Source: Chromatiales bacterium (GTDB lineage Bacteria; Pseudomonadota; Gammaproteobacteria; Steroidobacterales; GCA-2729495). From it: 64,000 nucleotides of DNA. The DNA is taken from the NCBI GenBank assembly GCA_020351875.1, contig CP070671.1, forward strand, positions 2,784,786-2,848,785, given 5' to 3'. Position numbers and translations under genes: made by a program. Every line of letters starts with the position of its first letter. Positions within the stretch are counted from its first letter, which is position 1. The notes below the pieces were generated by a model. The model was not told the origin of the DNA, searched no databases, and worked only from the letters and a program-made list of their open reading frames with translations. Below are positions 737 to 56,332 of the stretch, one piece after another.

Positions 737-819
737 CAGTTTGAGAGGGCAAAACCACCGAAAGGTGGTGGCGCAAAGTCACCGGTCTAAGGGGCTATGG
801 CTCTATGACAGCGGGATTG
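737..819 (+). promoter_or_regulatory. Cyclic-di-GMP class I (GEMM-I) riboswitch
   Basis: The leader matches the GEMM-I aptamer element by element. P1 forms between 737-742 and 814-819 (partly G-U pairs). The GGGCAAA block is at 747-753. A 6-bp P2 stem (754-759 with 764-769) is closed by a GAAA tetraloop at 760-763. The GCAAAG block is at 773-778, CCGGTCTAA at 782-790, a P3 hairpin at 791-804, and AGCGGGA at 810-816. By alignment to the Vibrio Vc2 aptamer, the ligand-contacting G (748) and stacking A (775) are kept; the retained G favours c-di-GMP over cGAMP. It lies about 90 bases upstream of a pilin-like operon. Confidence 0.88.
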
Positions 820-839
820 CATCAGGCTTAACCTGAACG

Positions 840-906
840 CACTCCCATCACGTGATGCGCCAGGCCCTTGTCAGAAATTGACTTGGCTAATTCACTGGAT
901 GGAGTG
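840..906 (+). promoter_or_regulatory. Possible Shine-Dalgarno-masking helix of the riboswitch
   Basis: CACTCCCATC at 840-849 is complementary to GATGGAGTG at 898-906, giving nine base pairs with one bulged C. The right arm contains the GGAG (901-904) that serves the start codon at 912, so forming the helix would block translation. A competing 12-base palindrome CATCACGTGATG (846-857) overlaps the left arm, and GCATCA next to the aptamer 3' end (819-824) can pair with TGATGC (853-858). This gives a plausible switch between two folds. No terminator with a U-run is present in the leader, so translational control is more likely than attenuation. The direction of the response cannot be told. Confidence 0.5.
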
Positions 907-911
907 TAATC

Positions 912-1451
912 ATGGACCTCAGAAAACTGATACTGGCCTCAGCGATCACGGCCACATTTGGTTTCTCGGCATCGGCTGTCGCGGATTCCCAGCTCTCGAT
1001 TGGCGGCACGGGCACGCAGGCCCAGGCCAGCGTCGATTTCCGCATTACGATTCCCGACTTTGTATTCTTCCAGGTGGGCACGCTCGGCACGGGCGACGTC
1101 GACCTGGTCGACTTTGACATGGCGGGTCTGGAGTCCGGTGACAGCAATCCCGTGGCTTCGGTCGGTGGCGGCCTGAACGTGGTGCTGCGATCCAATGCTG
1201 ACAACGTCTCACTGGGCGCGTCCGGCGGCAACCTGACTGGTGCCGTCCTCCTCGGGACGATTCCCTTTGCCGAGATCACTGCCACGGAATCTGTCGGCGA
1301 TATTCAGGTGCCGGATTTTGGCACGACCATTAACCTGCCGGCCGGTCCTTACAACCTGACGGACACCTGGGACTACAGCTACGACAACACGAGTGTCTAT
1401 GCGCCCGATGTCTACACCGGCCAGGTGACCTACACGGTGACGACGCTCTAA
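912..1451 (+). CDS. Exported pilin-like major subunit
   Basis: This 179-residue protein has a Sec signal peptide (about residues 1-24, ending near ASAVA). The mature part is cysteine-free and beta-rich, and ends in a strand of the form VYTGQVTYTVTTL. Alternating C-terminal strands of this kind are typical of chaperone-usher-type subunits and of DUF4402/spore-coat-U-like pilins. I do not recognise a precise family. It is the first gene after the c-di-GMP riboswitch and is followed by a strong terminator, as expected for an abundant major subunit. GGAG at 901-904 sits seven bases before the ATG. The next gene encodes a protein with the same kind of C-terminal strand. Confidence 0.72.
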   Translation: MDLRKLILASAITATFGFSASAVADSQLSIGGTGTQAQASVDFRITIPDFVFFQVGTLGTGDVDLVDFDMAGLESGDSNPVASVGGGLNVVLRSNADNVSLGASGGNLTGAVLLGTIPFAEITATESVGDIQVPDFGTTINLPAGPYNLTDTWDYSYDNTSVYAPDVYTGQVTYTVTTL

Positions 1452-1479
1452 TCACGCGCAATCGTTTCCGCAAAACCGG

Positions 1480-1529
1480 CCCCCGGGCTGCCAATATCTA
1501 TTAGCATTGGCACGCCCGGGGGTTTTTTT
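1480..1529 (+). terminator. Intercistronic terminator overlapping the next ribosome binding site
   Basis: CCCCCGGGCTGCCAAT (1480-1495) pairs with ATTGGCACGCCCGGGGG (1506-1522) with a single bulged C, giving a 16-bp stem and a 10-base loop, followed by seven T (1523-1529). The ATG of the next gene is at 1530, directly after the T-run, and the GGGGG at the end of the 3' arm is the only Shine-Dalgarno-like sequence in reach. The hairpin can thus both end most transcripts after the major subunit and hide the ribosome binding site of the minor subunit in those that read through. Confidence 0.85.
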
Positions 1530-2084
1530 ATGGGCCGAAAAGCCTTTTTCATACTGCTGTTTGCCAGTCTGTGGTTCTCGACGGCCCACGCGTTGCGGTT
1601 TTCCGTGCGCGCCACAACTCCCTTCGTGTATGTGCAGATCGGGCATGGGGATCTGAGCAGCTATGGCCTGCTGGGCCCGCCTGCCAGTCTTATCGATGAG
1701 GTGGCGTTCACCTTTCCAGCCGGTGTGCAATCCGGGGACGGCACACCGGTCGCCGGTACGCCGGTGATACCGATCGCATTCCTTGGCTACAGCGGCAGAA
1801 ACCGAAGCATCTACAGGATCACGATCGACTCGTCTGCCGGGCTGACGAACATCAATGGCGACAGCATGCCTTTTTCCGAGTTCAGTTGGGTAACTCAGGA
1901 TGGCGACATCCCGGCCGGGCAGTTCAATAATTCTCCGAACCAGTTGTTGTTCCAGTACAGCCAGAGAGGGCGCCGCCGCGCCCGAGGCATCGTCGACTAT
2001 CTGTCCTTCAGCTACGCCAATACACAGATCTACCCCGCGGGCGTCTATACCGGGCGGGTATTTTTCACCATTACAGAATTATGA
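1530..2084 (+). CDS. Exported pilin-like minor subunit
   Basis: The protein has 184 residues with a signal peptide (about 1-21, ending AHA). The mature part is beta-rich, carries a basic patch RGRRRARG near residue 150, and ends in GVYTGRVFFTITEL, closely matching the C-terminal strand of the preceding subunit. The two are probably divergent relatives working in the same fibre. The start codon follows directly on the T-run of the intercistronic terminator. The stop overlaps the next start as ATGA. Low expression relative to the first subunit is inferred from the terminator, suggesting a tip, adaptor or initiator role. Confidence 0.65.
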   Translation: MGRKAFFILLFASLWFSTAHALRFSVRATTPFVYVQIGHGDLSSYGLLGPPASLIDEVAFTFPAGVQSGDGTPVAGTPVIPIAFLGYSGRNRSIYRITIDSSAGLTNINGDSMPFSEFSWVTQDGDIPAGQFNNSPNQLLFQYSQRGRRRARGIVDYLSFSYANTQIYPAGVYTGRVFFTITEL

Positions 2085-2593
2085 TCCGGTCGATTACGAT
2101 TTTTCCCTGCCTGTTAATGATGCTGGTGACAGCGACCGCATTCGCCCAGCGAGTCAGGGTGGATGATTATCTGTCGCCGAATCAGACCTACGCGCTGGAT
2201 TTGCAATGGAATGCCTCGGAAATCAAGCGAGCGCTGAACGCGATGATTGCCGGGGAGGCGTCAGCGATGCCGCCACTGGTTGGCCGGGTAGACGGCGTCG
2301 AGGTCCGGCTCGACACGCGAGCTTACCTTGGCAAGCGGGCCAGGATTTTTCTCGCGCTGCCGATCCTGATCAGCGGCTTGGACAGCCCCTCCGATCTGGA
2401 ACTCCGATGGGATGCCAGCGGCGAATTCTTGCCGGGCGCTGTGCGCCCGGGGCAGTCGACACTGATATTCGAAGGTGTGGTGGACGAGCCGGTGACGGGC
2501 TTCGTCATGGACTTTGTCTTGGCGCTGGAAAACGGTGGCGCGGCCGACGGTTTTTCTCTGGAGCCCGTATATGAGATCGAATTGCTTCCATAG
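2081..2593 (+). CDS. Exported protein of the fimbria-like operon, unknown
   Basis: A 170-residue protein with a signal peptide (about 1-23, ending AFA). It lacks the C-terminal YTGxV strand of the two subunits. The body contains alternating hydrophobic segments (around residues 75-100 and 125-150) consistent with an all-beta fold, and the protein ends EIELLP. It is translationally coupled on both sides: its start overlaps the upstream stop as ATGA, and its last 23 bases overlap the chaperone gene. Position suggests a structural or anchoring component of the same surface structure. I do not recognise its family. Confidence 0.6.
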   Translation: MIRSITIFPCLLMMLVTATAFAQRVRVDDYLSPNQTYALDLQWNASEIKRALNAMIAGEASAMPPLVGRVDGVEVRLDTRAYLGKRARIFLALPILISGLDSPSDLELRWDASGEFLPGAVRPGQSTLIFEGVVDEPVTGFVMDFVLALENGGAADGFSLEPVYEIELLP

Positions 2594-3389
2594 TCTCGGC
2601 TTGCTCGCCGTGGCCGGACTCTGGCTGCCGGCGCAGAGTTTTGCCGCGACCCTGGGTGCCGGCGTATCGCCGAGCAAGTTTGAGCTGCGAGCCAAGCCGG
2701 GCCAGGTTTTGCGCGATACGTTGACGGTTCTGAATGCCAGTGAAGAGCCCAGCGAGTTTCAGTTTCGCACCGTCGACTGGCGCCTGAATGATACAAAAGG
2801 TGTGGACTATATCGAAGGCGAGTTGCCCGAAGGCAGTTGTCGTCCCTGGGTCCGGCTCGAGCGCAAGGCAGTCAAGATTCGCCCCGGCGGACAGAAGAAA
2901 TATCGCTTCGAGGTCCATGTACCCGAAGATGCACCGCCGGGCCTGTGTCGCTTTGCCATCATGATTGAACCGTCCGACGAACTGGTTTCCAGCTTGGGCG
3001 CGGATGGACAGATTCGCTTCCCGATCGTTGGCCGATACGCCGTCATCACCTATGTGACAGTGGGCGACGCGAAGGCCGAGATCGATTATCTCGGCATGGG
3101 ACAGACGTTCATCAGCGATCAACGCTTGCCCACATTGAAGTTGCGAAATCAGGGTAATACTTACGATCGAGCTTTTGGCGAAGTGACGGCCACGGACCCC
3201 AACGGCCAGAAAATTATTCTCATCGCCTCAACCTTCCCGGTGTTGCCGGATCGTACCGAGGAGATCGCGTTGGCGCCAAGGGCCCCGGCGCCGGGAGAAA
3301 GCTCCGTCAGCTTCCAGTACCCGCTGCAGCTAAAGGGCAAGATCGAAATCGGCGGTAAGACCATCAAGGTCGAAGAAACCTTCGATTAG
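2571..3389 (+). CDS. Periplasmic PapD-like fimbrial chaperone
   Basis: This 272-residue protein begins with a signal peptide (about 1-25, ending SFA). The mature N-terminus (GAGVSPSKFELRAKPG) and the following strands have the pattern of the immunoglobulin-like PapD superfamily, with the motif VLNASEEPSEFQF and two cysteines about 45 residues apart (GSC and GLC) that could form a disulfide. An upstream in-frame start at 2514 exists, but only the ATG at 2571 places the signal peptide at the N-terminus. The family role is donor-strand folding of pilus subunits, which fits the two exported subunits encoded upstream. No usher gene follows on the same strand; the convergent barrel gene is the candidate partner. 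Confidence 0.75.
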   Translation: MRSNCFHSLGLLAVAGLWLPAQSFAATLGAGVSPSKFELRAKPGQVLRDTLTVLNASEEPSEFQFRTVDWRLNDTKGVDYIEGELPEGSCRPWVRLERKAVKIRPGGQKKYRFEVHVPEDAPPGLCRFAIMIEPSDELVSSLGADGQIRFPIVGRYAVITYVTVGDAKAEIDYLGMGQTFISDQRLPTLKLRNQGNTYDRAFGEVTATDPNGQKIILIASTFPVLPDRTEEIALAPRAPAPGESSVSFQYPLQLKGKIEIGGKTIKVEETFD

Positions 3390-3427: not shown

Positions 3428-5539
3428 TCAGTTGATCCGCTGCAGCGGAAAATCCAATCTCGATTCGCGGCGGAAGCCGATCTCCACTGGGCGGGCGCGC
3501 TCATCGTCGAGGCCCCAAGGCAGCGGCACGTCTTCGGTCAGCAAGCGAATCTCGTGCCGGCCCGTCGGTACCGGGACAAATGAGAAACGTCCCTGGGCAT
3601 CGGTGCGAGTTTCATAGCGGCCATCGAGCAGAACGACGACACCTGCTGCTGCGCGCTCTGTCGGCTGGCGGATCGAATCCCGGTTCTCATCGAAGAATAC
3701 CTGGCCGCTGATGCGTCCGGTGCCTGCTCGGCCATTGGTCCGGCCAAAGGTCTGGTGGGGTCGACCAGACTTTTTCGCATATCCAAAATTAAGCCAGATA
3801 CTGTTACTGGCGCTCGTTCGGTTGCGAATCAGCAGGCCGGCATCATCGATGTCATAGGTTGCTGCGTTGTAATTTACGCTCAGGCTGGCAAACCAGTTTC
3901 GGAGAAAAGCCCACCGCGCATCGGCGTTGAAACTGTAGCCATTGTCAGCGCTGAATGTGTCGCCTTCAGTACGGTATAGCGAGCCGTTGAGGCTCAGCGA
4001 TATGTTGTCGGACGGGTCATAACGCATCAGCGTGGAGAATTCATCACGTCGGGTATCGCCGCGCAGATCCTCGTTCCATTCGACCCGGACTTCGTTCGTC
4101 AGCCGGAGATCCTGAGGCAGCCGCCAGTCAAAGCTGGTCCAGAAGCCTCGCTGGCTGCGTTCATTAGATTGGATATCACTGTTCAGTTCGGCGTTAAAAA
4201 CTTCGAGGCGCGCTTGGCCCCTATTCGTCATCAGGCTGACAAAGCTATTCACCCGCCAACCGACCTGATCATCATTGATCAAACCACCAGAGAACTGGCG
4301 AAAGGCCAGATTCCCGTTCAGGCCGAGCCCGAGGTCACGACTGGCCCGCAGGTTACTGGTGAAGAAAGTCGAATGGGCATTACTGGATCCCACGCCGTCC
4401 GAGCCGAGGCCTGTTTCCAGATAGTCATAGCCGCCCGATAGGGTGTAGCGGTAACTGTCTATATCCCCGCGTAAATACAGGCCCATCTGATCTGATGAGA
4501 TTGGCTCATCGGTCCAGGCGAGATCCGGCGCGAAGTAGAAGCCGCCATAGCGAACCGTGGGACCGGCACGCAGTTCCTGGTAGCTGTCTGTCCATACCCC
4601 GAGGTTACCGTCGTCATCTGCCAGCAACCGGGCCGCGTGTTCCTGAGCGCCTTCGGGCAGGGTGTAGCGGCCGGCCAGCAACAGGCTGGTGTGGTCACGA
4701 ACATCTGATTCACCATCCACCACGGCTACTTCGCCACCAACGTCAACATCTTCGTTGAGCCGGGTCTCATAGGCCAGTGTGGTCAGGTTTCCTCCAGTCT
4801 CCTCAAAGTGCGGCAGTGCGACGCCCCGGTAGGTGCCGGTCTTGCCGGTTGTAAACCGGAAGCTGCTGTCGGTGCCCACCAGAGTCGAGCTGGTCCCCAG
4901 TATGGGTGAGCTGGGCAGGCGATAGCGGAAACCGCTGTGGAGCAGCGAGCTAATCCGTGTTCGATGGTGGCCGACGGTGTTGTCCAGTGTCAGGTTGTCG
5001 GAAACCGGCATGGCGGACTGGCGAAAAGTGAACAGCAAATCCGTCCCGCTGGCGCTCCGGTCGAGGTAATCGCTGTCGATTTCGGAAAACTGGAGTTCCG
5101 CATCGATGATCCCCCAGTGCAGAGTTTCACGCCGCCACAGTGCGCGGCCTCCCTGTTCGACTTCATCGCCCAGCAAATCGTCATCGTTGCGATAGTAGGC
5201 AAGCTCCGCGACGAACAGTCGCTGACCGAAGGGTTCGTTGTCTGTCGTTGAGCCATCGTCGTAGACAGGCAGCTCACCTTCAAACAAATACTGATCCTCA
5301 TACGGCGGCTGTTCGGCATCGGTTGCTTCTGCCTTGGTCTCTGCTGGTGCCCCGATTACGGATAACTCATTGGGCGGGTTTGCATCCGTGCCTTGATCGG
5401 AAGCAGGTGTGGGGCTCGAGGCGTCACCCCAGGCAGGCGCGGCCGCGAACATCGCCAGGGCGACGATGCGAAGCACGCGGGCGCGCCGCGCTTGCACCAT
5501 CCGCCGCGCGGCGTTTTCTGGCCTGCCTGAAAGGGCCAT
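3428..5539 (-). CDS. Outer-membrane beta-barrel protein with SdrD-B-like C-terminal domain
   Basis: A 703-residue protein with a basic N-terminus and a signal peptide at about residues 14-38 (a start at Met14 is equally possible). An acidic, proline-rich linker is followed from about residue 90 to 600 by repeated amphipathic strands with alternating aromatic residues, as in large outer-membrane barrels. Residues 608-703 form a separate beta-sandwich: GQVFFDENRDS, GVVVLLDG, TDAQGRFSFVPVPTG, the pattern of SdrD-B or carboxypeptidase-regulatory domains. It converges on the pilin/chaperone operon with 38 bases between. It may be the secretion pore (usher analogue), but it does not match classical FimD closely; an unrelated barrel cannot be excluded. 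Confidence 0.65.
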   Translation of the reverse strand: MALSGRPENAARRMVQARRARVLRIVALAMFAAAPAWGDASSPTPASDQGTDANPPNELSVIGAPAETKAEATDAEQPPYEDQYLFEGELPVYDDGSTTDNEPFGQRLFVAELAYYRNDDDLLGDEVEQGGRALWRRETLHWGIIDAELQFSEIDSDYLDRSASGTDLLFTFRQSAMPVSDNLTLDNTVGHHRTRISSLLHSGFRYRLPSSPILGTSSTLVGTDSSFRFTTGKTGTYRGVALPHFEETGGNLTTLAYETRLNEDVDVGGEVAVVDGESDVRDHTSLLLAGRYTLPEGAQEHAARLLADDDGNLGVWTDSYQELRAGPTVRYGGFYFAPDLAWTDEPISSDQMGLYLRGDIDSYRYTLSGGYDYLETGLGSDGVGSSNAHSTFFTSNLRASRDLGLGLNGNLAFRQFSGGLINDDQVGWRVNSFVSLMTNRGQARLEVFNAELNSDIQSNERSQRGFWTSFDWRLPQDLRLTNEVRVEWNEDLRGDTRRDEFSTLMRYDPSDNISLSLNGSLYRTEGDTFSADNGYSFNADARWAFLRNWFASLSVNYNAATYDIDDAGLLIRNRTSASNSIWLNFGYAKKSGRPHQTFGRTNGRAGTGRISGQVFFDENRDSIRQPTERAAAGVVVLLDGRYETRTDAQGRFSFVPVPTGRHEIRLLTEDVPLPWGLDDERARPVEIGFRRESRLDFPLQRIN

Positions 5540-53894: not shown

Positions 53895-56332
53895 GCGGTT
53901 TCGCCGCCACGTTCCCGCAGCAGCAGCTCCAGGTAGTCGTCGCCGCTCATCGGCGAGCCGAACAGCAGGCCCTGGGCATAGTCGCAGCCCATGCGGCGTA
54001 GAAAGTCCAGTTGCTGGCCAGACTCCACGCCCTCGGCAACCACTTTCATGTTCAGGTTGTGGGCCATTTCAATAATCGTTGCCACGATGGTTGCATCGTC
54101 CGGGTTGCTGACCAGGTTCTCGACGAACGACCGGTCGATCTTCAGCGTGCCGATCGGGAACTGCTGGAGGGCACTCAGCGACGAGTAGCCGGTACCGAAG
54201 TCGTCGATCGCCATGTGCAGACCCGTCTGGCGGAGTTCTCGCAACACGCGCACGGTACGCTCCGGATTTTCCATCAAAGTTGACTCCGTGATTTCAAGTT
54301 CCAGGGAATCGGGCGTGATGCCTTTGCGCCGGAAGATGCGGTTCGTCCGCCGCACGAAGTTGGGTTGCGCCAGTTGCTTGAGCGACAGATTGACCGAGAT
54401 CTGCCCTGGCACCACGGTCTGGCGCTGCCACTCGGCCAGGTCGGTGCACACGCGTTTCAGCACCCATTCGCCGATCTCGAGTATGAGCCCGGTTTCCTCG
54501 GCCAGCGGGATGAATTCCGACGGCAGCACGAGGCCGTGGTCGGACAGTTCCCAGCGCACCAGGGCTTCTGCGCCGGCCACCTCACCGGTGGTGAGTTCGA
54601 TCTTCGGCTGGTAGTTCACCAGCAGCTCGTCCAGCTCGTAGGAGCGGCGCAGCTTGCTCTTGATCATCAGCCGTTCTACCGCCGCGGCGTTCATGTCGGG
54701 GTTGTAGAACTCCAGCCGGTTACCGCCCGCGCGCTTTGCGTGGTACAGGGCTGCGTCGGCATTGCGGATCAGGTCGGGCACGTTGTCTGCGTCCGCCGGG
54801 AAACAGGCGATGCCCATGCTGGCCGTGATGTACAGCTCGTGGCCCTGCACGATCAGAACGTCAGCGATTTCCTTCAACACGCGTCGCGCGACGGATTGCA
54901 GCCATGCCCGCTCGCCGGCAACCGGCTCGTCGACTTCCAGCACTACGCCGAATTCATCTCCGGCAAGCCGGCCGATGAAGCCGCCGTCGGGCAGCAGCTT
55001 GATCACCCTCTGGGTCAGGGTCTCGAGACTGGAGTCGCCGGCGCTGTGTCCGAAGGTGTCGTTGATGTCCTTGAAGCGATCCACGTCGAGATATAACAGC
55101 GCGAGCCGCCGGCCCGAGCGGCGCGTCCGTGCGATGGATCGCTGCAGCAGGTGCTGGAACTGCAGACGATTCGGTACCTTGGTCAGCGAATCCGTGCGCG
55201 CGAGGTATCGGATCCGCCGCTCCGCGGCCTTGCGTTCCGAGATGTCGCGGGCCGAGACCACGAAGCCGGACGGGTGTTCCGCCGTGCCCGGCAGGGCCGA
55301 CGAACTGAGCGACACCGGGACGGTTTTCCCGGAACTCTTCAGCAGGGTGGTCTCGTGGTCGCGGCGCGGGCCGGCGTCGAGCTGAAACGTGTCGCGGCGG
55401 TTGTTCGGCAGCAGGTCCTGCACCGAGCGCCCGATGAGCTCTTCTTCCCGGTAACCCAGCAGGGCTTCGGCAGCGGCGTTCGCGCGCAGAATCTCCTGGT
55501 CGACTGACGCCAGAATGATCGCATCGGCCATGTTGCCGATCATCTGGTCCAGGTAGTCGCGTGACACCGTCGTGTTGCGAAGCTTGTCGCGCATCTCTTC
55601 GAAGGCGCGCGCCAGCTGGCCAAGTTCGTCGGTGCGTTCGGTAGGCAACCGGGCGCCGAAGTCTCCCGTGGCGAGCCGTTCGGCCCCGGCCACGAGGCTG
55701 CCAATCGTGCGCGACTGGCGCCACGCGACGACCGTGGCCAGCACGCCGATCAACAGCAGGGCAATGGCGCCATAACCCAGCAATTTCACGCTGCCGGTGC
55801 GGCGCGCCTCTTCGCGAATAGTGGCCAGTTGCTGGCCCAGCTGCGCGTTGGTGGCCAGCAAACCGCCCGCATCGAAGACCTGCACCAGTGTGCCCACGGG
55901 TGCGTCCGAATCGATCAGCGGTGTCGTGACTGTCAGACGTTCGCCACCGCGTTCCGGTCCCCCGCCACCGATGCCGGCCTCCAGGCCAAGGTCACCGGCA
56001 TGTTGCAGCAGCAGGCCTTCCGTATCGCGCACCAGGACCAGGCCCGCGCCGGATTCAGTGATTGCGTCGTTCAGCAGCTTTTCGAGTTGTGCCAGGTTGC
56101 CCGCTGCCACCGCCGGTGCCAGCGCGCTGGCAAGGCTTTCGATCACTTCCGGCGACCGCCCGTCCACGCGGTTGGTCAGCACGGCGCGATTGGTGTCGAT
56201 GGCCGCCGCCATGATGTCGGACAGCGCATCGCGATACACGATTGACAGAATCGTCGCCGTTACCCCGACCATCAGCGCCGCGAGCACGACGCTGATGACC
56301 AGGTACTTGGGAACGAGGCGAACTTGGCGCAC
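53861..56332 (-). CDS. Membrane GGDEF-EAL c-di-GMP enzyme with HAMP and PAS
   Basis: 823 residues. Two membrane helices (about 10-32 and 180-200) flank a periplasmic sensor region; HAMP (about 205-255), PAS (about 260-380), GGDEF (about 385-540) and EAL (about 555-805) follow. The diguanylate-cyclase motif is AGDEF instead of GGDEF, and no RxxD inhibitory site is visible upstream. The EAL domain has EALVRWE, ELEITES, DDFGTGYSS, KIDRSFV and EGVE, so phosphodiesterase activity is likely. Net effect on c-di-GMP is not predictable. It could influence the riboswitch at 737-819. Confidence 0.9.
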   Translation of the reverse strand: MRQVRLVPKYLVISVVLAALMVGVTATILSIVYRDALSDIMAAAIDTNRAVLTNRVDGRSPEVIESLASALAPAVAAGNLAQLEKLLNDAITESGAGLVLVRDTEGLLLQHAGDLGLEAGIGGGGPERGGERLTVTTPLIDSDAPVGTLVQVFDAGGLLATNAQLGQQLATIREEARRTGSVKLLGYGAIALLLIGVLATVVAWRQSRTIGSLVAGAERLATGDFGARLPTERTDELGQLARAFEEMRDKLRNTTVSRDYLDQMIGNMADAIILASVDQEILRANAAAEALLGYREEELIGRSVQDLLPNNRRDTFQLDAGPRRDHETTLLKSSGKTVPVSLSSSALPGTAEHPSGFVVSARDISERKAAERRIRYLARTDSLTKVPNRLQFQHLLQRSIARTRRSGRRLALLYLDVDRFKDINDTFGHSAGDSSLETLTQRVIKLLPDGGFIGRLAGDEFGVVLEVDEPVAGERAWLQSVARRVLKEIADVLIVQGHELYITASMGIACFPADADNVPDLIRNADAALYHAKRAGGNRLEFYNPDMNAAAVERLMIKSKLRRSYELDELLVNYQPKIELTTGEVAGAEALVRWELSDHGLVLPSEFIPLAEETGLILEIGEWVLKRVCTDLAEWQRQTVVPGQISVNLSLKQLAQPNFVRRTNRIFRRKGITPDSLELEITESTLMENPERTVRVLRELRQTGLHMAIDDFGTGYSSLSALQQFPIGTLKIDRSFVENLVSNPDDATIVATIIEMAHNLNMKVVAEGVESGQQLDFLRRMGCDYAQGLLFGSPMSGDDYLELLLRERGGETAYRGLFAGGRR

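Follow-up and report, generated by a model that had tools for sequence, protein, structure and literature searches.

The c-di-GMP-I aptamer and the five-gene cassette

The locus lies at the beginning of a 64,000-nucleotide stretch of DNA (G000:C1:2784786-2848785), which in its full length is called the window here. It consists of a class-I c-di-GMP riboswitch aptamer, a leader of 87 nt on the 3' side of the aptamer, and a five-gene cassette, the products of which are three small secreted proteins, one protein resembling WxLIP and fimbrial chaperones, and one large outer-membrane barrel of usher-like type. Four of the five genes are co-directional (912–3389) and begin with signal-peptide-like sequences, and the fifth is convergent to them (3428–5539). 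Genes for an ImuB-like protein and an error-prone DnaE2-like polymerase are situated 5' of the window (L008:6-4470), and the stretch of about 1.2 kb between them and g1 contains no clear gene. The features of the cassette are as follows.

912–1451, plus strand: g1, secreted beta-rich protein of 179 aa, probable major subunit (family A7, 14 sequences)
1480–1529, plus strand: terminator-like hairpin with a T7 run in the gap between g1 and g2 (dG −33.4)
1530–2084, plus strand: g2, 184 aa, paralogue of g1 and candidate minor subunit (hhalign profile-profile probability 99.7 and E 3.5e-26 to g1)
2081–2593, plus strand: g3, secreted protein of 170 aa, in ATGA-type overlap with g2
2571–3389, plus strand: g4, predicted two-domain Ig-like periplasmic protein, WxLIP-related by profile and fimbrial-chaperone-like in its structural model
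3428–5539, minus strand: g5, predicted outer-membrane beta-barrel with a C-terminal SdrD_B/carboxypeptidase-regulatory-like domain (AlphaFold pLDDT 81.9)

A Pfam search with the window g1 protein gave no match, PDB searches with g1 and g2 returned only noise, and no relation of g3 to g1 was detected beyond the signal region. Homology of g1 and g2 to WxL proteins was considered and set aside, since the match is limited to the C-terminus and has an hhalign probability of 3%, though none of 60 column shuffles reached it. The hairpin at 1480–1529 suggests attenuation after the gene of the major subunit, so that g1 is expected to be more abundant than g2 to g4, and this would fit overproduction of g1 as the major subunit. 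Hairpins of other sequence with a T run occupy the same site in G001, G409 and G189, and several more distant loci have GC-rich hairpins there without a clear T run.

By profile and model, g4 is closest to the WxLIP proteins of Gram-positive bacteria. Its profile finds EfmWxLIP1 (E 7e-5), and comparison with a WxLIP alignment built from Bacillota plasmids gives an hhalign probability of 96.5 (P 1e-9), a value as high being reached by 0 of 60 column shuffles. The match to PF06030 (DUF916, PGBD) has an E of 6.6e-5 and, at 23.4 bits, stays under the cut-off of 27.3. In VIA comparisons, the g4 model, which is of low confidence (pLDDT 51.5), scores Z 8.5 with WxLIP, 6.5 with CsuC and 5.7 with PapD, and g4 has no PapD match in Pfam. 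The C-terminal transmembrane helix of WxLIP proteins is lacking in g4 and 14 relatives, the ends of which are polar and beta-rich by inspection.

The AlphaFold model of g5 contains 26 barrel strands and a C-terminal Ig-like domain. In Foldseek, the first 12 matches of this model are all FimD/PapC ushers (E 3e-13 to 1e-8), the best being FimD (E 3.1e-13), while Pfam gives no usher match for g5. VIA places the porin of the Mtr complex first (6r2q_B, Z 21.3) and the ushers at about 16, together with many other barrels. Because VIA ranks the Mtr porin above the ushers, the term usher-like is used here as a lead and not as a statement of membership.

Profile searches in 369 genomes of the class matched g4 in 16 and g1 in 12, and in the order the g4 profile was matched in 26 of the 396 genomes searched; the cassette is thus present in about 6% of the sampled genomes of the order and about 4% of those of the class. 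All five genes are present at 20 of the 20 loci examined in the order, and at the class loci examined as far as the contigs permit, where g1 to g3 are in some cases duplicated or lost. In the window, g5 is convergent and is not part of the g1–g4 transcript. However, at most loci of the order g5 overlaps g4 or lies 3' of it in the same orientation, which argues for a functional link of g5 with the operon. The name fimbria-like operon, given in the initial annotation, is a reasonable one for this arrangement, but the operon is non-canonical, as no usher, PapD-type chaperone or pilin family of Pfam is matched.

Ligand-contact residues and conservation of the riboswitch

The elements of the riboswitch and its leader, with pairings taken from the folding computations described below, are listed here.

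738–824, plus strand: c-di-GMP-I (GEMM-I) riboswitch aptamer (RF01051, 78.4 bits; contact equivalents G748, A775 and C820)
738–743, plus strand: candidate 5' strand of the P1 helix, AGUUUG (six pairs with 823–828 in the window and in G001)
823–828, plus strand: candidate 3' strand of the P1 helix, CAGGCU (nascent-RNA folding)
813–820, plus strand: aptamer 3' strand, GGGAUUGC, predicted to pair with the anti-SD region 839–846 in ligand-free nascent RNA
839–845, plus strand: anti-Shine-Dalgarno GCACUCC, predicted to pair with 901–907 once the aptamer has formed (0.84 in the window, 1.00 in G001)
901–904, plus strand: Shine-Dalgarno (SD) sequence GGAG, 7 nt 5' of the ATG at 912

Analysis of the 64 kb window using cmscan returned c-di-GMP-I as the sole Rfam match at gathering level (E 9.7e-14, model positions 1–87), and the alignment covers 87 of 87 positions without gaps. 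The score of 78.4 bits is well over the gathering threshold of RF01051 (35 bits) and bears out the earlier assignment to GEMM-I. All of the conserved blocks, namely the GAAA loop of P2, the CGCAAA block and the GGUCUAAGG block, were found. G748, at Rfam position 11, is the equivalent of G20 in Vc2, A775 that of A47 and C820 that of C92 (the C by our own alignment), positions which contact the ligand in Vc2 (PMC11218506). The ligand-contacting G noted in the initial annotation is therefore kept, and so are A775 and C820. In GEMM-Ib riboswitches (3',3'-cGAMP), an A replaces the G at the position of Vc2 G20. The window aptamer has G and not A at 748, which favours c-di-GMP over cGAMP as the ligand. 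Judged by its sequence, the element at 738–824 is a genuine member of the c-di-GMP-I class, and it is predicted to bind c-di-GMP.

The initial annotation had placed the aptamer at 737–819. The element does lie there, but this 3' end falls one base before C820 and misses the likely P1 strand at 823–828. In two orthologs, the candidate P1 (738–743/823–828) comprises six pairs, two of them G-U, plus an internal loop; its first pair is A-U in the window and G-U in G001. The 3' strand of P1 overlaps a competing hairpin formed by UCAGG (822–826) and CCUGA (832–836). The 60–70 nt on the 5' side of the aptamer (668–737) are highly conserved with G001 and the sequence further upstream is not, so that the promoter is probably located in this segment. 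A scan of 668–737 found no sigma-70 consensus.

The aptamer lies directly 5' of g1 in four genomes belonging to two families of the order, namely the window genome, G001, G522 and G451. G001, of the same genus, retains the aptamer, the leader and all five genes (83.1 bits with RF01051), while G522 (70.2 bits) and G451 (77.5 bits) belong to another family and were found by the search of the order. The window aptamer is 91% identical to that of G001 and 86% identical to that of G522, and the other riboswitches of the window genome reach at most 71%, which indicates that the aptamer was inherited with the operon and that the two probably share a history. The riboswitch is absent from the operon at 19 of the 20 loci examined in the order and at 13 loci of the class that lie outside this order; it is absent as well from one further class contig, which holds only part of g1.

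Predicted mutually exclusive pairings in the leader

The nine-base complement of the ribosome binding site (RBS) described in the initial annotation exists, as CACUCC(C)AUC at 840–849 against GAUGGAGUG at 898–906, with one bulged C. Its uninterrupted core consists of seven pairs, one of them G-U, between GCACUCC (839–845) and GGAGUGU (901–907). However, such a complement is by itself at the level of chance, as at least seven pairs to the RBS were also reached by 1125 of 2000 linker sequences shuffled by dinucleotides. Bare complementarity was therefore dropped as evidence, about half of the shuffles matching over the same length or a longer one. GCACUCC and the SD region are common to the window and G001, and the rest of the linker has diverged. 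Two other pairings were rejected, since a local stem CACU/AGUG around the SD is disrupted in G001 and the pairing of GCAUCA (819–824) with UGAUGC (854–859) is not kept there. A scan of the plus strand from the aptamer to the start codon found no intrinsic terminator.

Computed folding of the nascent RNA shows competition between the aptamer and the linker. P1 appears at transcript lengths of 90–95 nt in the window, and in G001 it does so at 95 nt alone. Once 110 nt have been made, and up to about 165 nt, the pairing of 813–820 with 839–846 dominates (0.83–0.85 in the window, 0.67–0.83 in G001); it abolishes P3 and P1 and lasts until the SD emerges. When the aptamer is imposed, GCACUCC is left free and pairs with GGAGUGU, and the SD is wholly paired in both the window and G001. 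In a wider context, extended by 25 nt on the 5' side and by 40 nt into the coding region, the unpaired value of the SD falls from 0.47 with the aptamer free to 0.00 with the aptamer formed in the window, and from 0.35 to 0.03 in G001. A drop as large was seen in this context in 0 of 300 linker shuffles for the window and 1 of 300 for G001, and shuffled linkers with the aptamer formed had a mean SD exposure of 0.2–0.3. The competing pairings that the initial annotation had pointed out in the leader were matched by 0 of 300 and 2 of 300 shuffles in these two close orthologs and thus exceed chance.

The two sides of the competition were also combined into a joint measure, the product of the pairing of the RBS by the linker with the aptamer formed and the holding of those same linker bases by the aptamer 3' strand in the free nascent RNA. 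It was reached by 1 of 300 shuffles for the window, 1 of 300 for G001 and 5 of 300 for G522. The anti-RBS of G522, GGUCUGCU versus AGUAGACC, differs in sequence and is alike in logic. In the leader of G451 the anti-SD arrangement is absent and the joint product is 0.00. What argues for an expression platform is not the complement to the RBS alone but the fact that it and the aptamer exclude each other, a feature that recurs in leaders of diverged sequence. An RBS that is masked with the aptamer formed and exposed without it, the OFF pattern of Vc2, is seen in silico for the window and for G001 (wider context) and for G522 (joint test) and not for G451; three of the four orthologous leaders thus fit the OFF arrangement in these models, and G451 does not.

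Equilibrium folding of the short leader was dropped as a test of polarity, since it tells nothing about G001, whose SD is paired in either state. In the shorter context the SD of G001 is sequestered at equilibrium even in the ligand-free form (unpaired 0.01), and in the full-length G522 leader it is paired in both states (unpaired 0.02). A switch in these cases would therefore have to be kinetic. Holding the aptamer and P1 against the competitor costs 10–20 kcal/mol in the nascent RNA, as computed for secondary structure without tertiary contacts and with a single energy model. At such a cost the ligand would have to bind before the competitor does, that is before about 110 nt have been transcribed.

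Predicted polarity and relation to known systems

Taken together, these results make it probable that g1, which likely encodes the major subunit in a predicted surface-protein operon of chaperone/usher-like type, is controlled at translation by the class-I riboswitch, acting as an OFF switch. In the absence of c-di-GMP, the aptamer 3' strand (813–820) would pair with GCACUCCC (839–846) as soon as this emerges, breaking the aptamer and trapping the anti-SD, so that the SD at 901–904 would be accessible. Binding of c-di-GMP when about 90–105 nt have been transcribed would hold P1 and P3; GCACUCC would then stay free and mask the SD when the latter emerges. Such a switch would place the operon under direct c-di-GMP control, as the initial annotation proposed. 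No sign of regulation was given there; the computed folds suggest that it is repression. Translational repression in the c-di-GMP-bound state has a precedent in Vc2 of V. cholerae (PMC7371385), for which it is also described in Inuzuka 2018, as cited in PMC9262584. The OFF reading is supported by the many GGDEF domains of the host (17 matches in the genome). On the other hand, c-di-GMP promotes adhesive structures more often than it represses them, which counts against it.

The opposite sign, with c-di-GMP raising expression of the operon through a platform that the secondary-structure model has missed, seems unlikely to us. It stays a real rival, since reviews stress that the sign of regulation is not transferable from one switch to another (PMC6366702). 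Activation is known for C. difficile pilA1 (class II), for B. thuringiensis cap (class I) and for a V. cholerae class-I switch opposite in sign to Vc2 (PMC6366702). The target in the window is moreover a predicted surface system, as with several pili and adhesins elsewhere, and G451 is without the OFF architecture. However, among the computed states of the window and G001 there is none in which a formed aptamer leaves the SD exposed (unpaired 0.00 and 0.03, respectively). Shuffled linkers with a formed aptamer still expose the SD at 0.2–0.3 on average. It is also possible, with a rather small probability, that the riboswitch acts mainly on continuation or stability of the transcript, by Rho access or RNase, and not on ribosome binding. 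Control by Rho or RNase is known for other riboswitches, and the 87-nt leader, with its absent intrinsic terminator, leaves room for it. Yet the pairings that exclude each other are centred on the SD and exceed those of shuffled linkers, so that the translational expression platform suggested in the initial annotation is the best-supported reading.

We consider it very improbable that the aptamer binds its ligand and regulates little, as a relic or a weak switch. Some C. difficile riboswitches are non-functional (PMC6366702), and most relatives of the operon are without the riboswitch. However, the aptamer, with its 91% and 86% identity across orthologs, is more conserved than the linker, and the riboswitch is kept in four of the four genomes of the two families in which the operon was found.

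The RNA belongs to a known class; its target is unusual and its OFF polarity is predicted. Vc2, in the leader of V. cholerae tfoY, has the same class of aptamer, its ligand is predicted to hide the downstream RBS (translational OFF) and kinetic control has been proposed for it too (PMC9262584, PMC7371385). However, the target of Vc2 is a regulator, whereas the window switch precedes a predicted surface-protein operon, with the OFF state predicted in silico. The GEMM-I switches C. difficile Cd1 and G. metallireducens pilM likewise set the 3' region of the aptamer against a downstream strand within a cotranscriptional time window (PMC9262584), but they act on intrinsic terminators, none of which was found in the window leader.

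The cassette resembles the chaperone-usher pili (FimC/FimD, PapD/PapC and the archaic Csu) in its small secreted subunits, its two-domain Ig-like periplasmic protein and its large barrel, as well as in the best Foldseek match of g5 to FimD and the hairpin after the gene of the probable major subunit. It differs from them in having no Pfam match to usher, PapD or pilin families; compared with ushers, the g5 model has about 26 strands and no inserted plug domain is apparent in its strand pattern. With the WxL/WxLIP clusters of Bacillota (DUF916-DUF3324) it shares a g4 probably homologous to WxLIP and adjoining small secreted proteins in the operon. In contrast to those clusters, g4 is without a transmembrane helix, WxL homology of g1 and g2 is not demonstrable, and an outer-membrane barrel is present. 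We tentatively suggest that the cassette may encode an assembly system of diderms whose small beta-sandwich subunits are served by a WxLIP-type chaperone and by a plug-less usher of about 26 strands. Such a system would form a separate branch linking the WxL clusters of Gram-positive bacteria with the chaperone-usher pili of Gram-negative ones, and in two families it would be subject to translational repression by c-di-GMP. Searches of the open-access literature did not find the combination of this riboswitch and cassette.

If the OFF reading is true, the locus is a natural case of a riboswitch by which c-di-GMP lowers, and does not raise, a surface structure. Because the anti-SD is common to two leaders, a third appears to follow the same logic with a different sequence and a fourth does not, the platform should be dissectable by simple mutations. 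The five-gene cassette is uncharacterised, and the apparent kinship of g4 with WxLIP bears on the evolution of chaperone-assisted surface proteins across envelope types.

Further riboswitches and a signalling domain were noted in the host and its relatives. One GGDEF domain is encoded inside the window, at about 54716–55201 on the minus strand (G000:C1:2839501-2839986). The genome has six matches to RF01051, one of which scores higher with c-di-GMP-I-GGC and one of which is borderline. The five other than the window aptamer precede, as far as gene identities can be read from sequence, a pilMNOP-like operon, a redoxin/TPR set, an FAD oxidase, an M23 peptidase/secA pair and, weakly, a small secreted protein. 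The borderline match (L012:7852-7918, minus strand, 35.2 bits) has a shortened P3 and lies about 230 nt 5' of the small secreted protein gene, which contains a masked N run. G522 carries two divergent riboswitches about 1 kb apart, at L154:6303-6384 (plus strand) and 5217–5303 (minus strand), assigned to RF03167 (c-di-GMP-I-GGC) and RF01051, and in G189 a Cobalamin riboswitch is present near the cassette (L094:2789-3006, minus strand). At least one RF01051 match is present in 53 of 60 relatives. The aptamer 5' of the pilMNOP-like operon (L011:7671-7797, minus strand) has a long P3 extension, giving it a length of 127 nt, and matches about as long (121–130 nt) occur in several relatives.
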